Part shown: positions 33,708 to 44,358 of the stretch, piece after piece
Layout of the letters: each line of letters starts with the position of its first letter
Position numbering within the stretch: the stretch's first letter is position 1
Origin: Deltaproteobacteria bacterium
GTDB taxonomy: Bacteria; Myxococcota; Myxococcia; SLRQ01
Direction of reading: 5' to 3'
Assembly: GCA_029210625.1 (NCBI GenBank)
Contig: JARGFU010000010.1
Coordinates: 1-64,000 of the forward strand
Length of the DNA: 64,000 bases
Position numbers and translations under genes: made by a program
Notes under the pieces: generated by a model
Told to the model about the DNA's origin: nothing
The model's input: only the letters and a program-made list of their open reading frames with translations
The model's database searches: none

Positions 33708-33837
33708 AAGTATCTGAAAATACTATGATTTGACCCCCTGGGGCCCCCGCCGGGCGCGGCAATGGGAGCCCCGGTGCGCGTCGGGTGGTGCTCCAGCGCC
33801 CCCGGACCCATTGCTTTCATCGAAAATTCAGGTACTT
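33708..33837. repeat. Imperfect inverted repeat element
   Basis: AAGTATCTGAA at 33708-33718 and AAGTACCTGAA on the minus strand at 33827-33837 bound a 130-bp segment. Both are followed inward by AT-rich bases and ATGA. GCAATGGG and CCCATTGC form a second, inner pair. This could be a small palindromic element or paired regulator sites. Confidence 0.35.
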
Positions 33838-33936
33838 AGCCCGGTCAGCCGGCGCCCTGGCGCTGGCATGGACGCTGCTATGAGGACACCTCGGTTCCGG
33901 GCCCCTTCCGGAAGACTCGCAGCAAGAGGAAAGCGC

Positions 33937-36507
33937 ATGGCTCACCGCTTCGTCGTCCCCGCTCTCGCCCGCAAGCTCATCGGCCTGCTCCCGGTGCTCT
34001 CCCTCGCGCTCCTGGCCGGCTGCCAGGGCGGCAGCGCGGGTCAGCTCCTCGAGGACGCGGTGCGGCCCGACGAGGAGGGCCTGACCCTCCTGCTGGCCCA
34101 GGACGACCTCCTCCACCGGCAGTTCAGCGGCGCGGCCGAGGGCGGCTTCACCACCGAGATCCTCGGCACCGGCGAGCGCAGCTTCAACCGGGTGGGCCTG
34201 CGCATCGACGCGCACCGCACGCCGGTCATCGAGGCCTCGGGCAGCCCGGACGGCGTCGCCTTCGGTCCCTGGCACCACGGCACCATCACCTACCAGGACG
34301 GCTTCGCCTACAACGCTCACGTCGACCTCGAGCACGGCAGCCGCTTCCTGCGCCTGCGCCTCTCGGGGATCGCCGAGGAGGACCTCTCCTTCCTCTCCCT
34401 CGAGGTCTTCACCTTCGAGCCCCTCGCCGGCCTCGATCCGGGCTTCGAGCCCGAGCTGCAGGACGCCCCGGAGGGCCTCGGTCAGCTGCGCTCGAACCTG
34501 GCCGCCGACGGCGTGGCGGTGATGCGCTCCCAGTGGGGGGCGCGGGCCACCCAGTGCACCTCGCGCCACACCCCCGTGCGGATGGCCATCCACCACACGG
34601 TGACCCCCAACAACGACACCTACGACATGCCCCGCCGGGTGCGGCAGATCCAGGCCTACCACATGGACAGCCGGGGCTGGTGCGACGTGGGCTATCACTT
34701 CCTCATCGGCCAGGACGGCGAGGTCTACCAGGCGCGGGAGGAGACCTACATCGGCGCGCACGTCGCCAACCACAACACGCAGACCGCCGGCATCTCCTTC
34801 ATCGGCGACTTCACCTCGATCGTCCCCAGCCAGGCCATGCTCGACGCCGGCGCGCGGATCGTCCGCTCCCTCTCGTCGACCTACGGCATCTCCATCGACC
34901 GCACCGCCATCAAGGGTCACCGCGAGTTCTCCGGCGCCTCCACTGCCTGCCCGGGCAACGCCTTCTACCCGACCCTCGACGCCTTCGTGGCCCTGGCGGC
35001 CTCCGGCGGCGGCGGCGGCGGTGGTGGCGGCGGGGCGACCAACGGCACCCTGCGGGGCGCGGTCTTCTGGGGCACCGACTTCGCGGCCGACATCAACGAC
35101 ACCGCCAAGCGGATCTCCGGCGCCACGGTGACCCTCTCCAACGGTGACGTCGACACCACCGACGCCGATGGCTGGTATCAGTTCGACGTCCCGGCGGGCA
35201 GCTACACCGCCACCATCACCGCCGCCGGCTACCAGAGCGGCACCCTCGCCCGCGACGTCAGCGCCGGCACCACCGCCTGGGGCAGCGTGATGCTCACCCC
35301 GGCGGCCACCTCCACCGGCACGGTGAAGGGCGTCGTCTTCTGGGGCGCCACCCTCGACGACTACGCGGTGAACGTCGGCGACGCCAGCAAGCGCATCGCC
35401 GGGGCGACCGTGACCTTCTCTCCCGGCGGCCGCAGCGCGAGCACCGACTCCAGCGGCTGGTACGAGATCGACCTGCCGGTCGGCACCTACACCCTCACCG
35501 CCTCGGCGGCGGGCTACCAGGACGCCACCCGGCCCGATCCGGTGACCGTCACCGAGAGCGCCGTCTCCTGGGGCTCGACCATGGTCCTCGGCGGCCCGAC
35601 CGTCGGGGTCGACGATCGGGCGGCGCCCATCGTGACGATCTCCAGCCCCTCCGACGGCGCGGTGGTGGACATCCCCGAGCTGATCGTCGTGGGCACCATC
35701 GTCGACGACTCGCCCATCGCCTACCTGCGGGCCAACGGCAGCGACGTGACCGTGACCAACGGCACCTTCCGCCACGCCACCTTCCTGACCCCGGGCGAGA
35801 ACCAGATCGTCTTCGAGGCCGCGGACGACCTCAACAACGTCGGCACCCAGACCCTCACCGTGACCTACGTGGGTGAGGAGGCGAGCGGCGTGCGGGGCTT
35901 CGTCTACGACGCCGCCCGGGGCCCCGAGGTGCGGATCGCCGACGCGACGATCCAGCTCACCGGCCCCGAGGACCGGCAGCTCAAGAGCGACGCCGCCGGC
36001 GCCTTCGACCTCGACCTCCCGGTGGGCAACTACCTCCTCTCCATCCGCGCCCCGGGCTTCGACCCCTACCAGAACGCGGTGGTGGTCACCGCCGGCTCCC
36101 GCACCCGGGTCGAGGCCGGCCTGGCGCTCGAGGGCAGCAGCGCCGGCAACGGGGTGGTGGAGATCACCTTCCCGGCGGCGGGCGAGCTCATCGAGGCCAA
36201 GCGGGTGCTGGTCACCGGCAAGGTCGATCCGGAGGTCGTCGTGCGCGTCGTGGTCTCCGGTCAGGACGCCACCCTGGTGGGGGAGGACTTCAGCAGCGAG
36301 GTGACCCTCGCCAAGGGCGCCAACCACCTGGTGGCCGTGGCCTTCGACGCCAGCGGCGCCGAGCTGGCCCGGGCCACCGTCGACGTCACCCGCAAGGCGG
36401 GCGCGCTGGGCTGCCAGAGCGCCGGCGGCGGCGCCCCCGGCCTCGCCTTCACCTTCCTCGGCCTCCTGGGGCTGCTGGGCGTCAGCGCCAAGCGTAGGCG
36501 GCGCTAG
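33937..36507 (+). CDS. N-acetylmuramoyl-L-alanine amidase (PGRP fold) with Ig/CarboxypepD-like repeats and MYXO-CTERM-like anchor
   Basis: 856 residues from the ATG at 33937 (ribosome-binding site AAGAGGAAAG). Lipobox ALLAGC. An N-terminal beta region to about 190 is followed by an Amidase_2/PGRP domain (about 200-355) with zinc ligands His219/220 (AIHHT), His328 (KGHREF) and Cys338 (TACPG). A poly-Gly linker leads to two tandem carboxypeptidase-regulatory-like modules (both with FWG, KRIxGATV and GWYxxD), an Ig-like module, a third regulatory-like module and another Ig-like module. The C-terminus GCQSAGG, hydrophobic helix, KRRRR resembles the MYXO-CTERM sorting signal. It should cleave the peptidoglycan stem-peptide link at the cell surface. 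Confidence 0.9.
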   Translation: MAHRFVVPALARKLIGLLPVLSLALLAGCQGGSAGQLLEDAVRPDEEGLTLLLAQDDLLHRQFSGAAEGGFTTEILGTGERSFNRVGLRIDAHRTPVIEASGSPDGVAFGPWHHGTITYQDGFAYNAHVDLEHGSRFLRLRLSGIAEEDLSFLSLEVFTFEPLAGLDPGFEPELQDAPEGLGQLRSNLAADGVAVMRSQWGARATQCTSRHTPVRMAIHHTVTPNNDTYDMPRRVRQIQAYHMDSRGWCDVGYHFLIGQDGEVYQAREETYIGAHVANHNTQTAGISFIGDFTSIVPSQAMLDAGARIVRSLSSTYGISIDRTAIKGHREFSGASTACPGNAFYPTLDAFVALAASGGGGGGGGGGATNGTLRGAVFWGTDFAADINDTAKRISGATVTLSNGDVDTTDADGWYQFDVPAGSYTATITAAGYQSGTLARDVSAGTTAWGSVMLTPAATSTGTVKGVVFWGATLDDYAVNVGDASKRIAGATVTFSPGGRSASTDSSGWYEIDLPVGTYTLTASAAGYQDATRPDPVTVTESAVSWGSTMVLGGPTVGVDDRAAPIVTISSPSDGAVVDIPELIVVGTIVDDSPIAYLRANGSDVTVTNGTFRHATFLTPGENQIVFEAADDLNNVGTQTLTVTYVGEEASGVRGFVYDAARGPEVRIADATIQLTGPEDRQLKSDAAGAFDLDLPVGNYLLSIRAPGFDPYQNAVVVTAGSRTRVEAGLALEGSSAGNGVVEITFPAAGELIEAKRVLVTGKVDPEVVVRVVVSGQDATLVGEDFSSEVTLAKGANHLVAVAFDASGAELARATVDVTRKAGALGCQSAGGGAPGLAFTFLGLLGLLGVSAKRRRR

Positions 36508-37747: not shown

Positions 37748-39502
<1,755 letters not shown>

Positions 39503-39558
39503 GAGGTCCTCCCGTGGACCGTCAGATACCACGCTTGTCCGCCGGGTCGCAGCGCCGC

Positions 39559-39564
39559 TACCAT
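39559..39564 (+). promoter_or_regulatory. -10-like TACCAT before the cyclase, probable leaderless start
   Basis: TACCAT ends 6 nt before the GTG at 39571, in the divergent gap with the M14 gene. The spacing would put the transcription start at the codon itself. Confidence 0.4.
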
Positions 39565-39570
39565 CCCCAC

Positions 39571-41046
39571 GTGCCTTGCCTGATCCAGGACACCCCGGAA
39601 GGGCCGCGGGTCTTCGAGCTGAAGGAGACCACCTACATCGGCCGGGCCCCCGAGTGCGACATCGTCCTCTCGGACGCCTCGATCTCCCGCCGCCACGCCC
39701 GCATCCACCGCGTCGGCGGCAAGCACGTCCTGCAGGACGAGGGCAGCCGCTTCGGCTCCTTCGTCAACGGCTCGAAGGTGGCCTCCTTCGCCCTCTCCGA
39801 GGGAGATCGCGTGCAGCTGGGGAGCGTCGAGCTGATCTACCGCCTGGACCTGAAGCTCGACACCGGGCTGCGGGAGATCACCGGCGAGGGCGAGCGCCTG
39901 CCGGTCGACCCCGTCGAGGTGAAGCGCATCCTCGGCGAGCTGGAGCGGACCAAGGCCCTCCTCGCCCTGCAGCACACCTTCGTGCGCTGCACGAGCCTGA
40001 ACATGGTGCTCCAGGGCGCAGGCCCCGAGCTCACCCGCAAGCTGCGCGCCGACCGGGCGCTGGTGCTGATCTACGACTCGCGCACCAACGCCTTCACCAT
40101 CCAGTTCCAGCAGGGGCTGCCCTCCATCCCGCAGCACCGGGTCGGCGAGGTGGACCAGGCCTTCTCCACCGCCCAGATCCGCCACATGACGCCGGACCAC
40201 GACGGCCGGATCGCCATGGCCATCCCGATCCCGGGGAGCGAGCGCTACCCCCAGGGGCTGGTCTACGTCGAGTTCCCCCCCGGCCGGGTGCCGGAGGAGG
40301 GGCAGATCGAGATGGCGCGGGCCATGTGCGGCGAGCTGGGCAGCGCCCTGACCCACCACCGCCTGCTGAACCAGGTGCGGGAGGAGGCCGAGGCCCGCTC
40401 CAACCTCTCCCGCTACCTCGCCGACCAGGTCGTCGAGGCGGTGCTGGCCGGCAAGATCAATCTCGCCATGGGCGGTGAGCACCGCACGGTGACCGTGCTC
40501 TTCACCGACATCCGCTCCTTCACCACCCTCTCGGAGCGGATGCCCCCCGAGCACGTGCTCTCGATGCTCAACGAGTACTTCTCCGAGGCCGTGCCGATCA
40601 TCAAGCGCTACGAGGGCACGGTGGACAAGTTCATCGGTGACGCCCTGATGGCGGTCTTCGGTGCGCCCAACGAGCTACCCGACCAGGCCCTGCGGGCGGT
40701 GCGGGCCGCGGTGGAGATCCGGGACGTCGTCCGCGAGCTGCGCGTCCGCTGGGCCGACCGGCCCTGGGCCGCGCACATGGATGTTTCGAACTTCGCCGTG
40801 GGCATCGGCGTGAACACCGGCCCCGCGGTGGCCGGCAACCTCGGCTCGGAGGACCGGCGCGAGTACGGGGTCATCGGTGACGCGGTGAACGTGGCCGCGC
40901 GCCTCTGCTCCAAGGCCGGCCCCGACGAGGTCTTCATCGGCGGCGACACCGCCGCCGGGGTGGGCGATCAGATGCAGCTGAAGTTCCTGGAGCCGATGCC
41001 GGTGAAGGGCCGGCAGCAGCCGGTGCAGGCCTACAGCGTCCTCTGA
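39571..41046 (+). CDS. FHA-GAF-class III adenylate cyclase
   Basis: 491 residues from the GTG at 39571. FHA domain about 5-85 with the phosphothreonine-binding core YIGRAPECDIVLSD, SISRRHARI and GSFVNG. GAF-like region 120-280. Class III cyclase 300-490 with metal-binding Asp313 (LFTDIRSF) and Asp357, substrate-Lys candidate in KFIGDALMAVFG, and IGDAVNVAARL. All metal and transition-state residues appear present, so it should make cAMP. FHA domains read phosphothreonine, which links it to the kinase gene that ends against its stop. Confidence 0.92.
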   Translation: MPCLIQDTPEGPRVFELKETTYIGRAPECDIVLSDASISRRHARIHRVGGKHVLQDEGSRFGSFVNGSKVASFALSEGDRVQLGSVELIYRLDLKLDTGLREITGEGERLPVDPVEVKRILGELERTKALLALQHTFVRCTSLNMVLQGAGPELTRKLRADRALVLIYDSRTNAFTIQFQQGLPSIPQHRVGEVDQAFSTAQIRHMTPDHDGRIAMAIPIPGSERYPQGLVYVEFPPGRVPEEGQIEMARAMCGELGSALTHHRLLNQVREEAEARSNLSRYLADQVVEAVLAGKINLAMGGEHRTVTVLFTDIRSFTTLSERMPPEHVLSMLNEYFSEAVPIIKRYEGTVDKFIGDALMAVFGAPNELPDQALRAVRAAVEIRDVVRELRVRWADRPWAAHMDVSNFAVGIGVNTGPAVAGNLGSEDRREYGVIGDAVNVAARLCSKAGPDEVFIGGDTAAGVGDQMQLKFLEPMPVKGRQQPVQAYSVL

Positions 41047-41994
41047 TCAGGCGATCACGCCGAGCTTCTCGGCGAGGTAGCCCTCGAAGGCGCCGGGCGC
41101 CAGCTGGCAGTCCTCGTCGAGCTGGTAGCGCACCAGCGCCCCGCAGAGGGCGCCGGCGGTCGGGTAGCGGTTCTTGGAGGCCCGGGAGAGGGCCTTCTGG
41201 AGGATCTTCTTCATCGCCTCGTCGACCAGCCCCGGCGGGAAGTCGACCTTCGCCGCCGCGATGGACTGGAAGAGGCGCAGGTCGTCCTCTCCGTCGAAGG
41301 GCCGGTAGCCCACCACCAGCTCGTAGAGCATCACCCCGATCGCCCAGAGGTCGTCCGCCTGGCAGCGCTCGCCCCCGGCGACGATCTCCGGAGAGAAGTA
41401 GTGACGCTTGCCCAGGGCCATCCCCGGGGGGAGCTGCACGCCCGCGCCGATGCCGTCGATGGTGGCGACCCCGAAGTCTCCGAGCTTCACCTCGCCCTCC
41501 ACCGAGAGGAAGACGTTCGAGGGGTTCACGTCGCCGTGGATCAGCGCGAGGGGGTGCCCGCCCCGCCCCCGGGCCTGGTGGAAGGAGGCCAGGCCCCGCA
41601 GCACCGAGCAGATCACGTGGAGGGTCACCTCCAGCGGCACCCCGTCCGAGCTCTGGTGGTGGGAGGACATCAGGGTGCGCAGGTCGCCCCCGAAGAGGTC
41701 CTCCATCGCGATGAAGGCCCGGCCGCCGGCCTCCCCCACCTCGAGCCGGGCCACGAGGTTGGGGTGGTGCAGCAGGTTCATCAGGTCGGCCTCGAGCACG
41801 AAGAGATCGGTGACCTCCTCGTCTGCCCCCTTCTGGAGCAGCTTGAGGATGGCCGTGCGCAGCTCGCCCCGCTCGTCGACGTACTCGGCGCGGAAGATCT
41901 CGGCCATGCCCCCCTCACCGACCCTGGTGGCGAGCTGGTACTGACCGAAGCGCCGCGAGGCGATGACCCCCAGATTCTCCATCCCGTGAGACAC
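41047..41994 (-). CDS. Ser/Thr protein kinase with variant catalytic loop
   Basis: 315 residues, no membrane segment, almost only the kinase domain. Gly-loop VGEGGMAEIF, Lys51 in ILK, Glu68 in the C-helix, and catalytic loop H153-G154-D155-V-N157-P-S-N160 in place of HRD-x-K-P-x-N. The DFG at 173-175 is intact and SPE replaces APE. The catalytic Asp is kept but Arg becomes Gly and the phosphate-contacting Lys becomes Asn, so activity may be reduced or altered. It converges on the FHA-cyclase with no spacer. No PASTA or sensor domain. Confidence 0.9.
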   Translation of the reverse strand: MSHGMENLGVIASRRFGQYQLATRVGEGGMAEIFRAEYVDERGELRTAILKLLQKGADEEVTDLFVLEADLMNLLHHPNLVARLEVGEAGGRAFIAMEDLFGGDLRTLMSSHHQSSDGVPLEVTLHVICSVLRGLASFHQARGRGGHPLALIHGDVNPSNVFLSVEGEVKLGDFGVATIDGIGAGVQLPPGMALGKRHYFSPEIVAGGERCQADDLWAIGVMLYELVVGYRPFDGEDDLRLFQSIAAAKVDFPPGLVDEAMKKILQKALSRASKNRYPTAGALCGALVRYQLDEDCQLAPGAFEGYLAEKLGVIA

Positions 41995-42039
41995 CCTATC
42001 GTTCCCGCCGGGGCGGATTCCAGGGCAAGATGGGCCCCG

Positions 42040-44358
42040 ATGGAACGCTTCGTGGAGGGAGTCCTGCGAAGGAGGCTCTGGGTGCTGGCCGCGATCGGCC
42101 TGCTCTCCGGGCTCTCCCTCCTCTCCCTCACCCGGGCGGTGATCGCCTCCTCGGTGGCCGAGCTCTTCCTGGGGGAGAGCGCCGAGTACCAGGCCTTCCT
42201 CGAGCAGGCGCGCACCTTCGGCAACGACGAGATCGGCGTCTTCATCCTGCCCGCGAAGGGGATCCTCGAGCCCGAGGGCCGCGAGGCCCTCGCCCGGGCC
42301 ACCGGCGCGATCGAGTCGATGCCCGAGGTCGCCCGGGTGCTCTCGATCCTGGACGTGCAGAGCATCCGCTCGGACGACGACGACCTAGTGGTGGAGAGCC
42401 GGGTCGACCGCATCGAGAGCGCCGGGCTCGGCGGCGCCGAGGCCCTGGCCGAGCTCGAGGACGAGCCGCTGGTCCGCGGCACGCTCCTCTCCCGGGACGG
42501 CAACCACACCGCGGTGGTCGTCGAGCTGCGCACCGACGGGCAGCGGGCGGCCGAGCGCCTCGATCTCTACATCCGGCAGATGCTCGACGCCTTCGTCGAC
42601 GCGGGCTTCCCCCGGGAGGAGATCCGCCGGGCCGGCGCCATCGTGGTGATGTCCGAGGTGATCGTCCAGACCCTCTACTCGGTGAGGGGCATCTTCCCGA
42701 TCTCGGCGGTGGTGCTGCTCTTCGCGGTCTGGGCCCTCTTCCGGCGCCTCTGGCCCTCGATGCTCTCCCTGGGGATCGCGCTGGTCGCGGTCCTCTGGAC
42801 GATGGGCCTGGCCGTCGCCATCGACCCCCAGGTGAACATCCTGATGGCGACGGTGCCGGCGGTGATCCTGATCGTCTCCTTCTCGGACGTGGTGCACCTC
42901 TGCTCGGCCTATCTGCTGGAGCTCGAGCGGGGGCTCGAGAAGGATGCGGCCATCCGTCAGGCGGCGGCCGACGTCGGCCGGGCCTGCCTCTACACCTCCC
43001 TGACCACCTTCGTCGGCTTCGTCTCCCTCTCCCTGATCCCCACCAAGGCCTTCCGGCAGCTGGGGCTGATCCTCGGCTTCGGCGTGGCGGTGGCCCTCCT
43101 CCTGGCCGTCACCCTCGCCCCCATCGCCTTCCACCTCCTGCCGCAGCCGAAGGCCCTGCGCGCGGGCACCACCGGCAGGGTGCAGGGCCTCCTCGACGGT
43201 GTGCTGGCCGCCGTGCAGCGCCTGGTCCTGCGCTTCCCGCTGCCCACCGCGCTCGCCTTCGGTGTCCTCTTCCTGGCCTGCGTCGCCTCCCTCTTCACCC
43301 TCCACCTCGAGACCCGCTTCTCGGATCGCCTGGCGCCGCGCAACCAGGTGCGGCAGGACCACCACTTCCTCATCGATCACTTCGGCGGCTCGAACATCAT
43401 GGAGCTCTACCTGGAGGCCCCCGAGGTGGACGGCCTGCTCGAGCCGGCCGTGATGCAGGGCGTGGCGGCGCTCGCCGCCGAGGCCCGCGCCCTGCCCGAG
43501 GTCTCGGCGGTCTTCTCGCTGGTGGATCTGATGGAGCAGCTCCACCGGTCCCTCGACCCCGGGGCGAAGGGCGCCCTGCCCGCGACCCGGGAGGCCCTCG
43601 CCCAGTACCTGCTGCTCTTCGAGATGTCCGGGGGGGAGGAGCTGGAGCGCCTGGTCGACGCCGACCGCCGCAAGATGCACCTGACGGTGCGCCTGCCCGA
43701 CGAGGGCTTCCGCAGCACGGCCGAGGTGGGCCGCAAGCTGGAGGAGGCCGGGCGCCGCCTGATCCCGGAGGAGGTGCGGGTCTGGGCGACGGGCCACACC
43801 CTGCTCTTCGGCATGTGGCTCGACGACGTCATCGCCGGGCAGCGCCGGGGCCTGGGCCTCTCGCTGGCCGTCATCGCGTTCATGATGATCATCTCGGTGC
43901 GCTCGCTGCGGATGGGGCTCTGGTCGATGATCCCCAACGTCCTGCCGCTGCTGGCGCTCGGCGGCTACCTGGCGCTGACGACCGCCGCGGTGGACACCGA
44001 CCTGATGATGGTCGCGATGCTGGCCATCGGCATCGGGGTCGACGACACCATCCACTTCCTGACCCGCTATTGCATCGAGCGGGAGCGGGGGGCGAGCCGC
44101 GAGCAGGCGATCGAGAACACCTTCCACTTCGCCGGCCGGGCCATCGTGATGACCACGGTCATCCTGGTTGTGGGCTTCGCGCCCTTCGCGAGCAGCCAGT
44201 ACCTGAGCACCCGGGTGATGGGGACGCTCCTGCCGATGGTGCTCGGGGTGGCGCTGGTCGCGGACCTGGTGCTGGTGCCCGCGCTCCTGAAGCTCGGAGT
44301 GATGGAGCGAGGCGTGGATCGCAAGGGCGACGCCATTCGTGCCGGCCGCGAGCCCTAG
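42040..44358 (+). CDS. RND/MMPL superfamily transporter
   Basis: 772 residues with the RND duplication: an N-terminal helix, an exported loop (40-220), helices 2-6, then the same order again. Motifs include VNILMATVPAVILIVSFSDVVHLCSAY and the second-half TDLMMVAMLAIGIGVDDTIHFLTRY, with DDT in the membrane as in proton-relay positions. It belongs with HAE3/MMPL exporters of lipids or hopanoids. The ATG at 42040 follows GGGCAAG weakly. Divergent from the kinase across 45 bp; monocistronic by context. Confidence 0.9.
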   Translation: MERFVEGVLRRRLWVLAAIGLLSGLSLLSLTRAVIASSVAELFLGESAEYQAFLEQARTFGNDEIGVFILPAKGILEPEGREALARATGAIESMPEVARVLSILDVQSIRSDDDDLVVESRVDRIESAGLGGAEALAELEDEPLVRGTLLSRDGNHTAVVVELRTDGQRAAERLDLYIRQMLDAFVDAGFPREEIRRAGAIVVMSEVIVQTLYSVRGIFPISAVVLLFAVWALFRRLWPSMLSLGIALVAVLWTMGLAVAIDPQVNILMATVPAVILIVSFSDVVHLCSAYLLELERGLEKDAAIRQAAADVGRACLYTSLTTFVGFVSLSLIPTKAFRQLGLILGFGVAVALLLAVTLAPIAFHLLPQPKALRAGTTGRVQGLLDGVLAAVQRLVLRFPLPTALAFGVLFLACVASLFTLHLETRFSDRLAPRNQVRQDHHFLIDHFGGSNIMELYLEAPEVDGLLEPAVMQGVAALAAEARALPEVSAVFSLVDLMEQLHRSLDPGAKGALPATREALAQYLLLFEMSGGEELERLVDADRRKMHLTVRLPDEGFRSTAEVGRKLEEAGRRLIPEEVRVWATGHTLLFGMWLDDVIAGQRRGLGLSLAVIAFMMIISVRSLRMGLWSMIPNVLPLLALGGYLALTTAAVDTDLMMVAMLAIGIGVDDTIHFLTRYCIERERGASREQAIENTFHFAGRAIVMTTVILVVGFAPFASSQYLSTRVMGTLLPMVLGVALVADLVLVPALLKLGVMERGVDRKGDAIRAGREP

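Follow-up and report, generated by a model that had tools for sequence, protein, structure and literature searches.

Do two genes that meet end to end in a window of 64,000 nucleotides (the whole stretch of DNA analyzed here, from the draft genome of a Deltaproteobacteria bacterium of the class Myxococcia), one for a nucleotide cyclase with an FHA domain and the other for a Ser/Thr kinase with an altered catalytic loop, form a signaling module, and is the chemistry of the kinase unusual? An earlier note, made from the sequence alone, had proposed a compact kinase-to-cAMP module with unusual catalysis. The features on which our analysis is based are as follows.

39571..41046 (+): FHA-GAF-class III nucleotide cyclase of 491 aa, with a GTG start, assigned by similarity
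39634..39822 (+): FHA domain with Gly24-Arg25, Ser39-x-x-His42 and Asn66-Gly67 (Pfam, motif)
39910..40407 (+): GAF-like middle domain and flanking helices, approximate limits (GAF_3 matches of relatives, secondary structure of the model)
40477..41034 (+): class III cyclase catalytic domain (Pfam, invariant residues, nearest solved folds)
41044..41049 (no strand): abutting stop codons TGATCA, with TGA at 41044-41046 for the cyclase and TCA (TGA on the minus strand) at 41047-41049 for the kinase
41047..41994 (-): stand-alone Hanks-type Ser/Thr kinase of a non-RD clade, 315 aa plus stop (Pfam Pkinase, tree, model)
41515..41538 (-): catalytic loop HGDVNPSN, residues 153-160 (non-Arg in 50/50 relatives)
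41386..41412 (-): P+1 loop GKRHYFSPE, residues 195-203 (Gly195 and Lys196 invariant in a 22-row alignment)

The two genes are convergent, and their stop codons abut with no spacer at all, as the earlier note had read; its description of the pair as back to back was right about the abutment, whereas "tail to tail" better describes the orientation. Convergent genes cannot share a transcript, and a scan of the interval 39400-42200 revealed neither terminator-like nor sigma-70-like sites. The pair is adjoined on one side by a gene for an M14 carboxypeptidase (37748-39532, minus strand) and on the other by that for an MMPL transporter, which begins at 42040 on the plus strand and is divergent from the kinase gene. 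A further gene in the window (33730-36507, plus strand) encodes a protein of the Amidase_2 type that contains several repeats (CarboxypepD_reg, Glucodextran_B and PEGA). The 6.1-Mb draft genome to which the window belongs (G000) yielded 55 Pkinase, 42 FHA and 28 cyclase matches.

The FHA domain of the cyclase was recognized by Pfam (PF00498, E 5.2e-19; 68.9 bits with a cut-off of 20.7) and resembles that of GarA (E 6e-13), a kinase-controlled FHA switch. It contains the Gly-Arg, Ser-x-x-His and Asn-Gly residues, which PMC1262709 gives as those that bind phosphothreonine, and Gly24, Arg25, Ser39 and His42 were nearly invariant among 21 FHA-cyclases. For the middle domain, no GAF match was obtained for the window cyclase with Pfam at E<=0.1, and GAF_3 matched four of five alignment rows, the window row being the exception. 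Given that the rows of relatives match GAF models and that a domain of alpha/beta type (approximately residues 114-279) separates the FHA domain from the cyclase domain in the AlphaFold model, the GAF label is supported indirectly. The catalytic domain matched the class III cyclase family (PF00211/Guanylate_cyc, E 2e-26; 93.1 bits with a cut-off of 21.9), and Asp313, Asp357, Lys353, Asn440 and Arg444 were invariant in a 21-row cyclase alignment. We take Asp313 and Asp357 to serve the metal, Lys353 the base, and Asn440 and Arg444 the transition state. Lys353 favors ATP and the enzyme is most likely an adenylyl cyclase, but this assignment is not certain because the second base-specifying position, that of the threonine, is occupied by Gly433. 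The nearest solved folds are those of CyaC of Arthrospira, Cya2 of Synechocystis and CyaB of Pseudomonas, which have the catalytic fold and key residues in common with the window cyclase; the FHA input domain and the neighboring kinase set the latter apart. Only two strict orthologues were detected in the class (in genomes G093 and G091, with 45% and 43% identity, respectively), and these formed a 100/100 clade with the window cyclase in the cyclase tree. With a broader FHA-GAF-cyclase profile (E<=1e-70), matches were obtained in 125 of the 147 genomes of the class.

The kinase matched Pfam Pkinase (PF00069, E 2.7e-29; 102.8 bits with a cut-off of 31.7), no second Pfam domain was found in it, and the VAIK Lys, the HxD Asp, the following Asn and the DFG motif are all present. 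As the earlier note had stated, its catalytic loop reads HGDVNPSN in place of HRDxKPxN (His153-Gly154-Asp155-Val156-Asn157-Pro158-Ser159-Asn160), with Asp155, Lys51 and the DFG motif (Asp173) retained. Gly154 precedes the catalytic Asp, so that the protein is not an RD kinase, and the usual combination of Lys at HRDxK with Thr or Ser at GTxxYxxPE is replaced by Asn157 and Lys196. Its best sequence matches in the PDB were the PknB-type kinases StkP, PknB and PknA, from which it differs in its non-RD HGDVN loop, in the GK of its P+1 loop and in having neither a PASTA nor a transmembrane part. The AlphaFold model shows a full kinase fold with a mean pLDDT of 87.7, being weak at residues 1-6 and in the activation loop (181-192).

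Relatives of the kinase at E<=1e-50, mostly with about 50% identity, were present in at least 51 of 147 class genomes, that of the window included, a lower bound given that 15 candidates were scored per genome. The named relatives among the matches listed come from Archangium (placed in the class Myxococcia by NCBI), Citreicoccus and Myxococcales MAGs. At the 50 loci outside the window, which in every count include L135 (38% identity), probably a paralogue, the residue before the catalytic Asp was Gly in 31, Ser in 17, Gln in 1, Cys in 1 and Arg in none, and position 157 was Asn in 45, Thr in 4 and Ser in 1. Conservation of G154 and N157 had been put forward as a check in the earlier note and, given that HRD occurs at 0 of 50 loci, the altered catalytic loop is a real and conserved trait of the clade. 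Lys51, Glu68, Asp155, Asn160, Asp173 and the glycine loop were invariant in the 22-row alignment of relatives. In a kinase tree that took 13 of the 50 relatives together with kinase domains from 37 loci of the window's own genome, the window kinase was nested in the non-RD clade with the relative from G139 as its sister. The HRD arginine normally responds to activation-loop phosphorylation, according to PMC1821047, and a non-RD kinase is not equivalent to an inactive one. We conclude from sequence and model that the window kinase is an active-looking, apparently soluble, non-RD kinase and a typical member of its conserved clade.

Whether Asn157 signifies strange chemistry was judged against other kinases. 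We found 255 kinase loops, 14 of which were unreadable, and among the 241 readable distinct loops, a set that the P+1 reading pattern favors, all 109 with Lys at HRDxK had Thr or Ser in the P+1 loop, whereas Lys or Arg occupied that P+1 position in 129 of the 132 with Ser, Asn, Thr or another residue at HRDxK. The class to which the window kinase belongs, with Asn in the catalytic loop and Lys in the P+1 loop, made up 40 of the 241. A sample of 38 kinase domains from the window's own genome, one of them unread, gave the same picture: all 16 with Lys followed the pattern, and 20 of the 21 without it had the P+1 Lys. Since loops without the catalytic Lys nearly always carry a P+1 Lys or Arg, Asn157 places the window kinase in a large group and is not a singular oddity, and we rejected it as a sign of strange chemistry. 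The "unusual catalysis" of the earlier note is thus correct with regard to the altered loop and overstated with regard to its strangeness, the core residues being invariant. The two lysine states largely track one split, into two halves, of the kinase tree, and the exchange pairs are therefore not independent events. The positions of Asn157 and Lys196, which correspond to Lys168 and Thr201 of PKA, presumably touch, and the non-RD clade offers a clean test case for whether a P+1 lysine can replace that of the catalytic loop. The majority of myxobacterial kinases are described with lysine in the loop in PMC2887360, and our literature search for an exchange between catalytic-loop and P+1 lysines found no description of one.

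With regard to the proposed module, we examined 54 FHA-cyclase loci, and a kinase domain lay within 2 kb of the cyclase at 38 of them, the loci having been hand-picked from search hits at one to a few per genus, and related species not being independent; it was absent at 16, some of which are near contig ends. Twenty-six of the 38 had a co-directional downstream kinase, nine were beside a co-directional kinase-cyclase fusion and three were convergent with the kinase, these three being the window, L112 and L114. Without the five prompting loci (the window, L112, L114, G000 C3 and G000 C14), 34 of 49 remained beside a kinase. In a control with genomes G000, G093, G006 and G010, for which kinases were typed on cyclase-carrying contigs, with some distant ones on G000:C1 left out and one fused kinase-cyclase set aside, a kinase was within 2 kb of 6 of 7 FHA-cyclases versus 1 of 40 other cyclase matches (Fisher p 4.5e-6). 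The sole exception among the 40 is a cyclase without an FHA match (G010:C44:16323-17686) located 54 bp from a kinase match. FHA-cyclases as a class are thus linked to kinases by both counts. Part of this signal reflects a known tendency, given that FHA domains in general are enriched near kinases: 11 of the 42 FHA matches in the window's own genome were within 2 kb of a kinase, compared with 4.3% expected, and clustering of FHA genes with kinases in M. tuberculosis is described in PMC1262709. The partner kinases are scattered over separate parts of the kinase tree. The loop HRDLKP(E/A/D)N is common to all 36 partners other than that of the window, and not one of them falls in the non-RD clade, leaving the window partner as the only non-RD member. 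As a matter of genome organization, the FHA-cyclase/kinase link is well supported at the family level, as a module that recurs among genomes and in which the kinase can be exchanged, and it would be compatible with a relay from phosphothreonine to cAMP.

The exact pair of the window is a different matter. The earlier note had named co-occurrence of this kinase type with an FHA-cyclase as a check, and no FHA or cyclase domain was found within 3 kb of the kinase relative at any of the 50 loci. Linkage of the same two genes as a kinase-FHA effector pair was thus absent elsewhere, conserved linkage of this pair was rejected, and the pairing has been seen once. The kinase-to-cAMP module therefore survives as a pairing of the FHA-cyclase family with kinases (38 of 54 loci; 6 of 7 versus 1 of 40), but not with this kinase as the conserved partner. 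The window cyclase and both of its strict orthologues (three of three) are convergent with a downstream kinase, but that of G091 and G093 is a different, long kinase with the loop HRDLKPAN. An MshEN-like label for the NH2-terminal part of the L112 and L114 kinases was discarded, with no such Pfam match. Seventeen of the 50 relatives of the window kinase (for example, L105, L111 and L119) have a divergent upstream second kinase with a loop of the HRD(I/V)KA type, the gap between the kinase domains being 212-534 bp; the one that was scanned, at L111, contains a zinc ribbon and a COOH-terminal PEGA domain.

The explanation that we prefer, with a probability of roughly 0.42 for the whole, is that phosphothreonine gates the window cyclase, a nucleotide cyclase (most likely an adenylyl cyclase) from a family widespread in Myxococcia, and that the neighboring kinase is its partner. 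The target of the kinase would be either the kinase itself or the cyclase; the FHA domain would dock on the resulting phosphothreonine, and the change would be relayed by way of the GAF-like domain and a helical linker to the cyclase dimer, with cAMP being raised or lowered. Members of the family would normally be encoded beside their own kinase, and in the window lineage a non-RD neighbor would not depend on arginine-mediated phosphorylation of its activation loop. In favor of this explanation are the family counts (38 of 54; 6 of 7 versus 1 of 40), the convergent orthologues and the retained FHA, cyclase and kinase residues. Against it stand the lack of linkage at the 50 relatives, the HRDLKP(E/A/D)N loops of the 36 other partners, the impossibility of a shared transcript, the 16 of 54 loci without a kinase, and Gly433.

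That the window cyclase has the window kinase in particular as its partner is a single case, about as likely as that the kinase is an accidental neighbor. If the adjacency is accidental, the non-RD kinase would belong to a separate, conserved pathway of its own, with the cyclase controlled by some other kinase or by no kinase at all, a reading that we take seriously at somewhat below even odds. The absence of an FHA-cyclase beside all 50 relatives agrees with it, as do the divergent pairing of 17 of them with HRD(I/V)KA-type kinases (PEGA-tailed in the one scanned) and a convergent order that gives no co-transcription; 55 kinase matches in 6.1 Mb would, moreover, provide chance neighbors at a few percent. 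It does not readily accommodate the strong enrichment of the FHA-cyclase family beside kinases, however, or the fact that each of the two orthologues of the window cyclase likewise has a convergent kinase neighbor. Another candidate for the true partner is an orthologue of the long neighbor kinase of G091 and G093, moved to contig C14 in the window's genome. In the kinase tree, the protein encoded at C14:148678-149427 groups as sister to the partner kinases of L112 and L114 (100/100), and its gene lies approximately 5-6 kb from another FHA-cyclase. It is not linked to the window cyclase, however, and the cyclase on C14 is only distantly related and sits on a long branch of its family; we regard this alternative as improbable. 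The C14 region that spans that kinase and FHA-cyclase (148678-155914) hints at an earlier association of this type of kinase with FHA-cyclases.

A pseudokinase or scaffold role for the window kinase, limited to docking the cyclase, is in our view still less probable, and indeed very improbable. Loss of both the HRD arginine and the HRDxK lysine is what such a protein might show, but the invariance of Lys51, Glu68, Asp155, Asn160, Asp173 and the glycine loop over 22 rows, the matching of the lysine loss by Lys196 and the complete modeled fold all argue for a working kinase.

Returning to the preferred explanation, a bolder version of it, which we regard as rather doubtful, is that of a standing two-gene phosphothreonine-to-cAMP relay in Myxococcia in which the cyclase has been kept and the kinase exchanged, the non-RD, lysine-moved kinase of the window having been captured into the slot. 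At least four kinase lineages would then have occupied that slot, namely the common HRDLKPEN type, the fusion of kinase, receiver and cyclase, the long G091/G093 kinase and, in the window, the non-RD one. Exchange of the kinase beside a retained cyclase raises the question of how specificity survives. To our knowledge, few Ser/Thr kinases have been connected to a second messenger in bacteria with very large kinomes, and a family of cyclases whose phosphothreonine reader is intact and whose genes usually adjoin that of a kinase supplies concrete pairs for probing direct kinase control of cAMP.

Among known systems, mycobacterial PknB/PknG-GarA and PknH-EmbR (the latter described as a kinase-FHA pair in PMC2877116) also combine a Hanks-type kinase with an FHA protein, and the window FHA domain aligns with GarA. 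Their outputs are metabolic enzymes or transcription, whereas that of the window pair would be a class III cyclase; gene order and kinases also differ. A literature search for an FHA-cyclase/kinase gene pair found no published description. Clustering of FHA genes with Ser/Thr kinases is the known theme, on which the FHA-cyclase/kinase module appears to be a new variation.

Kinases are coupled to class III cyclase-type domains also in fusion proteins such as TOMM_kin_cyc (TIGR03903), Pkinase-Response_reg-Guanylate_cyc and Pkn2 of M. xanthus, whose GC-like domain is mentioned in PMC1262709. These differ from the window pair in being single polypeptides without an FHA reader, although several adjoin an FHA-cyclase. 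A kinase with a COOH-terminal class III cyclase-like domain is thus found next to an FHA-cyclase at L280, L282, L284, L292, L303, L307, L318 and L153, and the one such fusion that was scanned has the architecture Pkinase-Response_reg-Guanylate_cyc. At L280, the fusion sits between two FHA-cyclases. In the window's own genome, kinase and cyclase matches also occur together at C23:9556-10947, in what is apparently one open frame of 783 aa.
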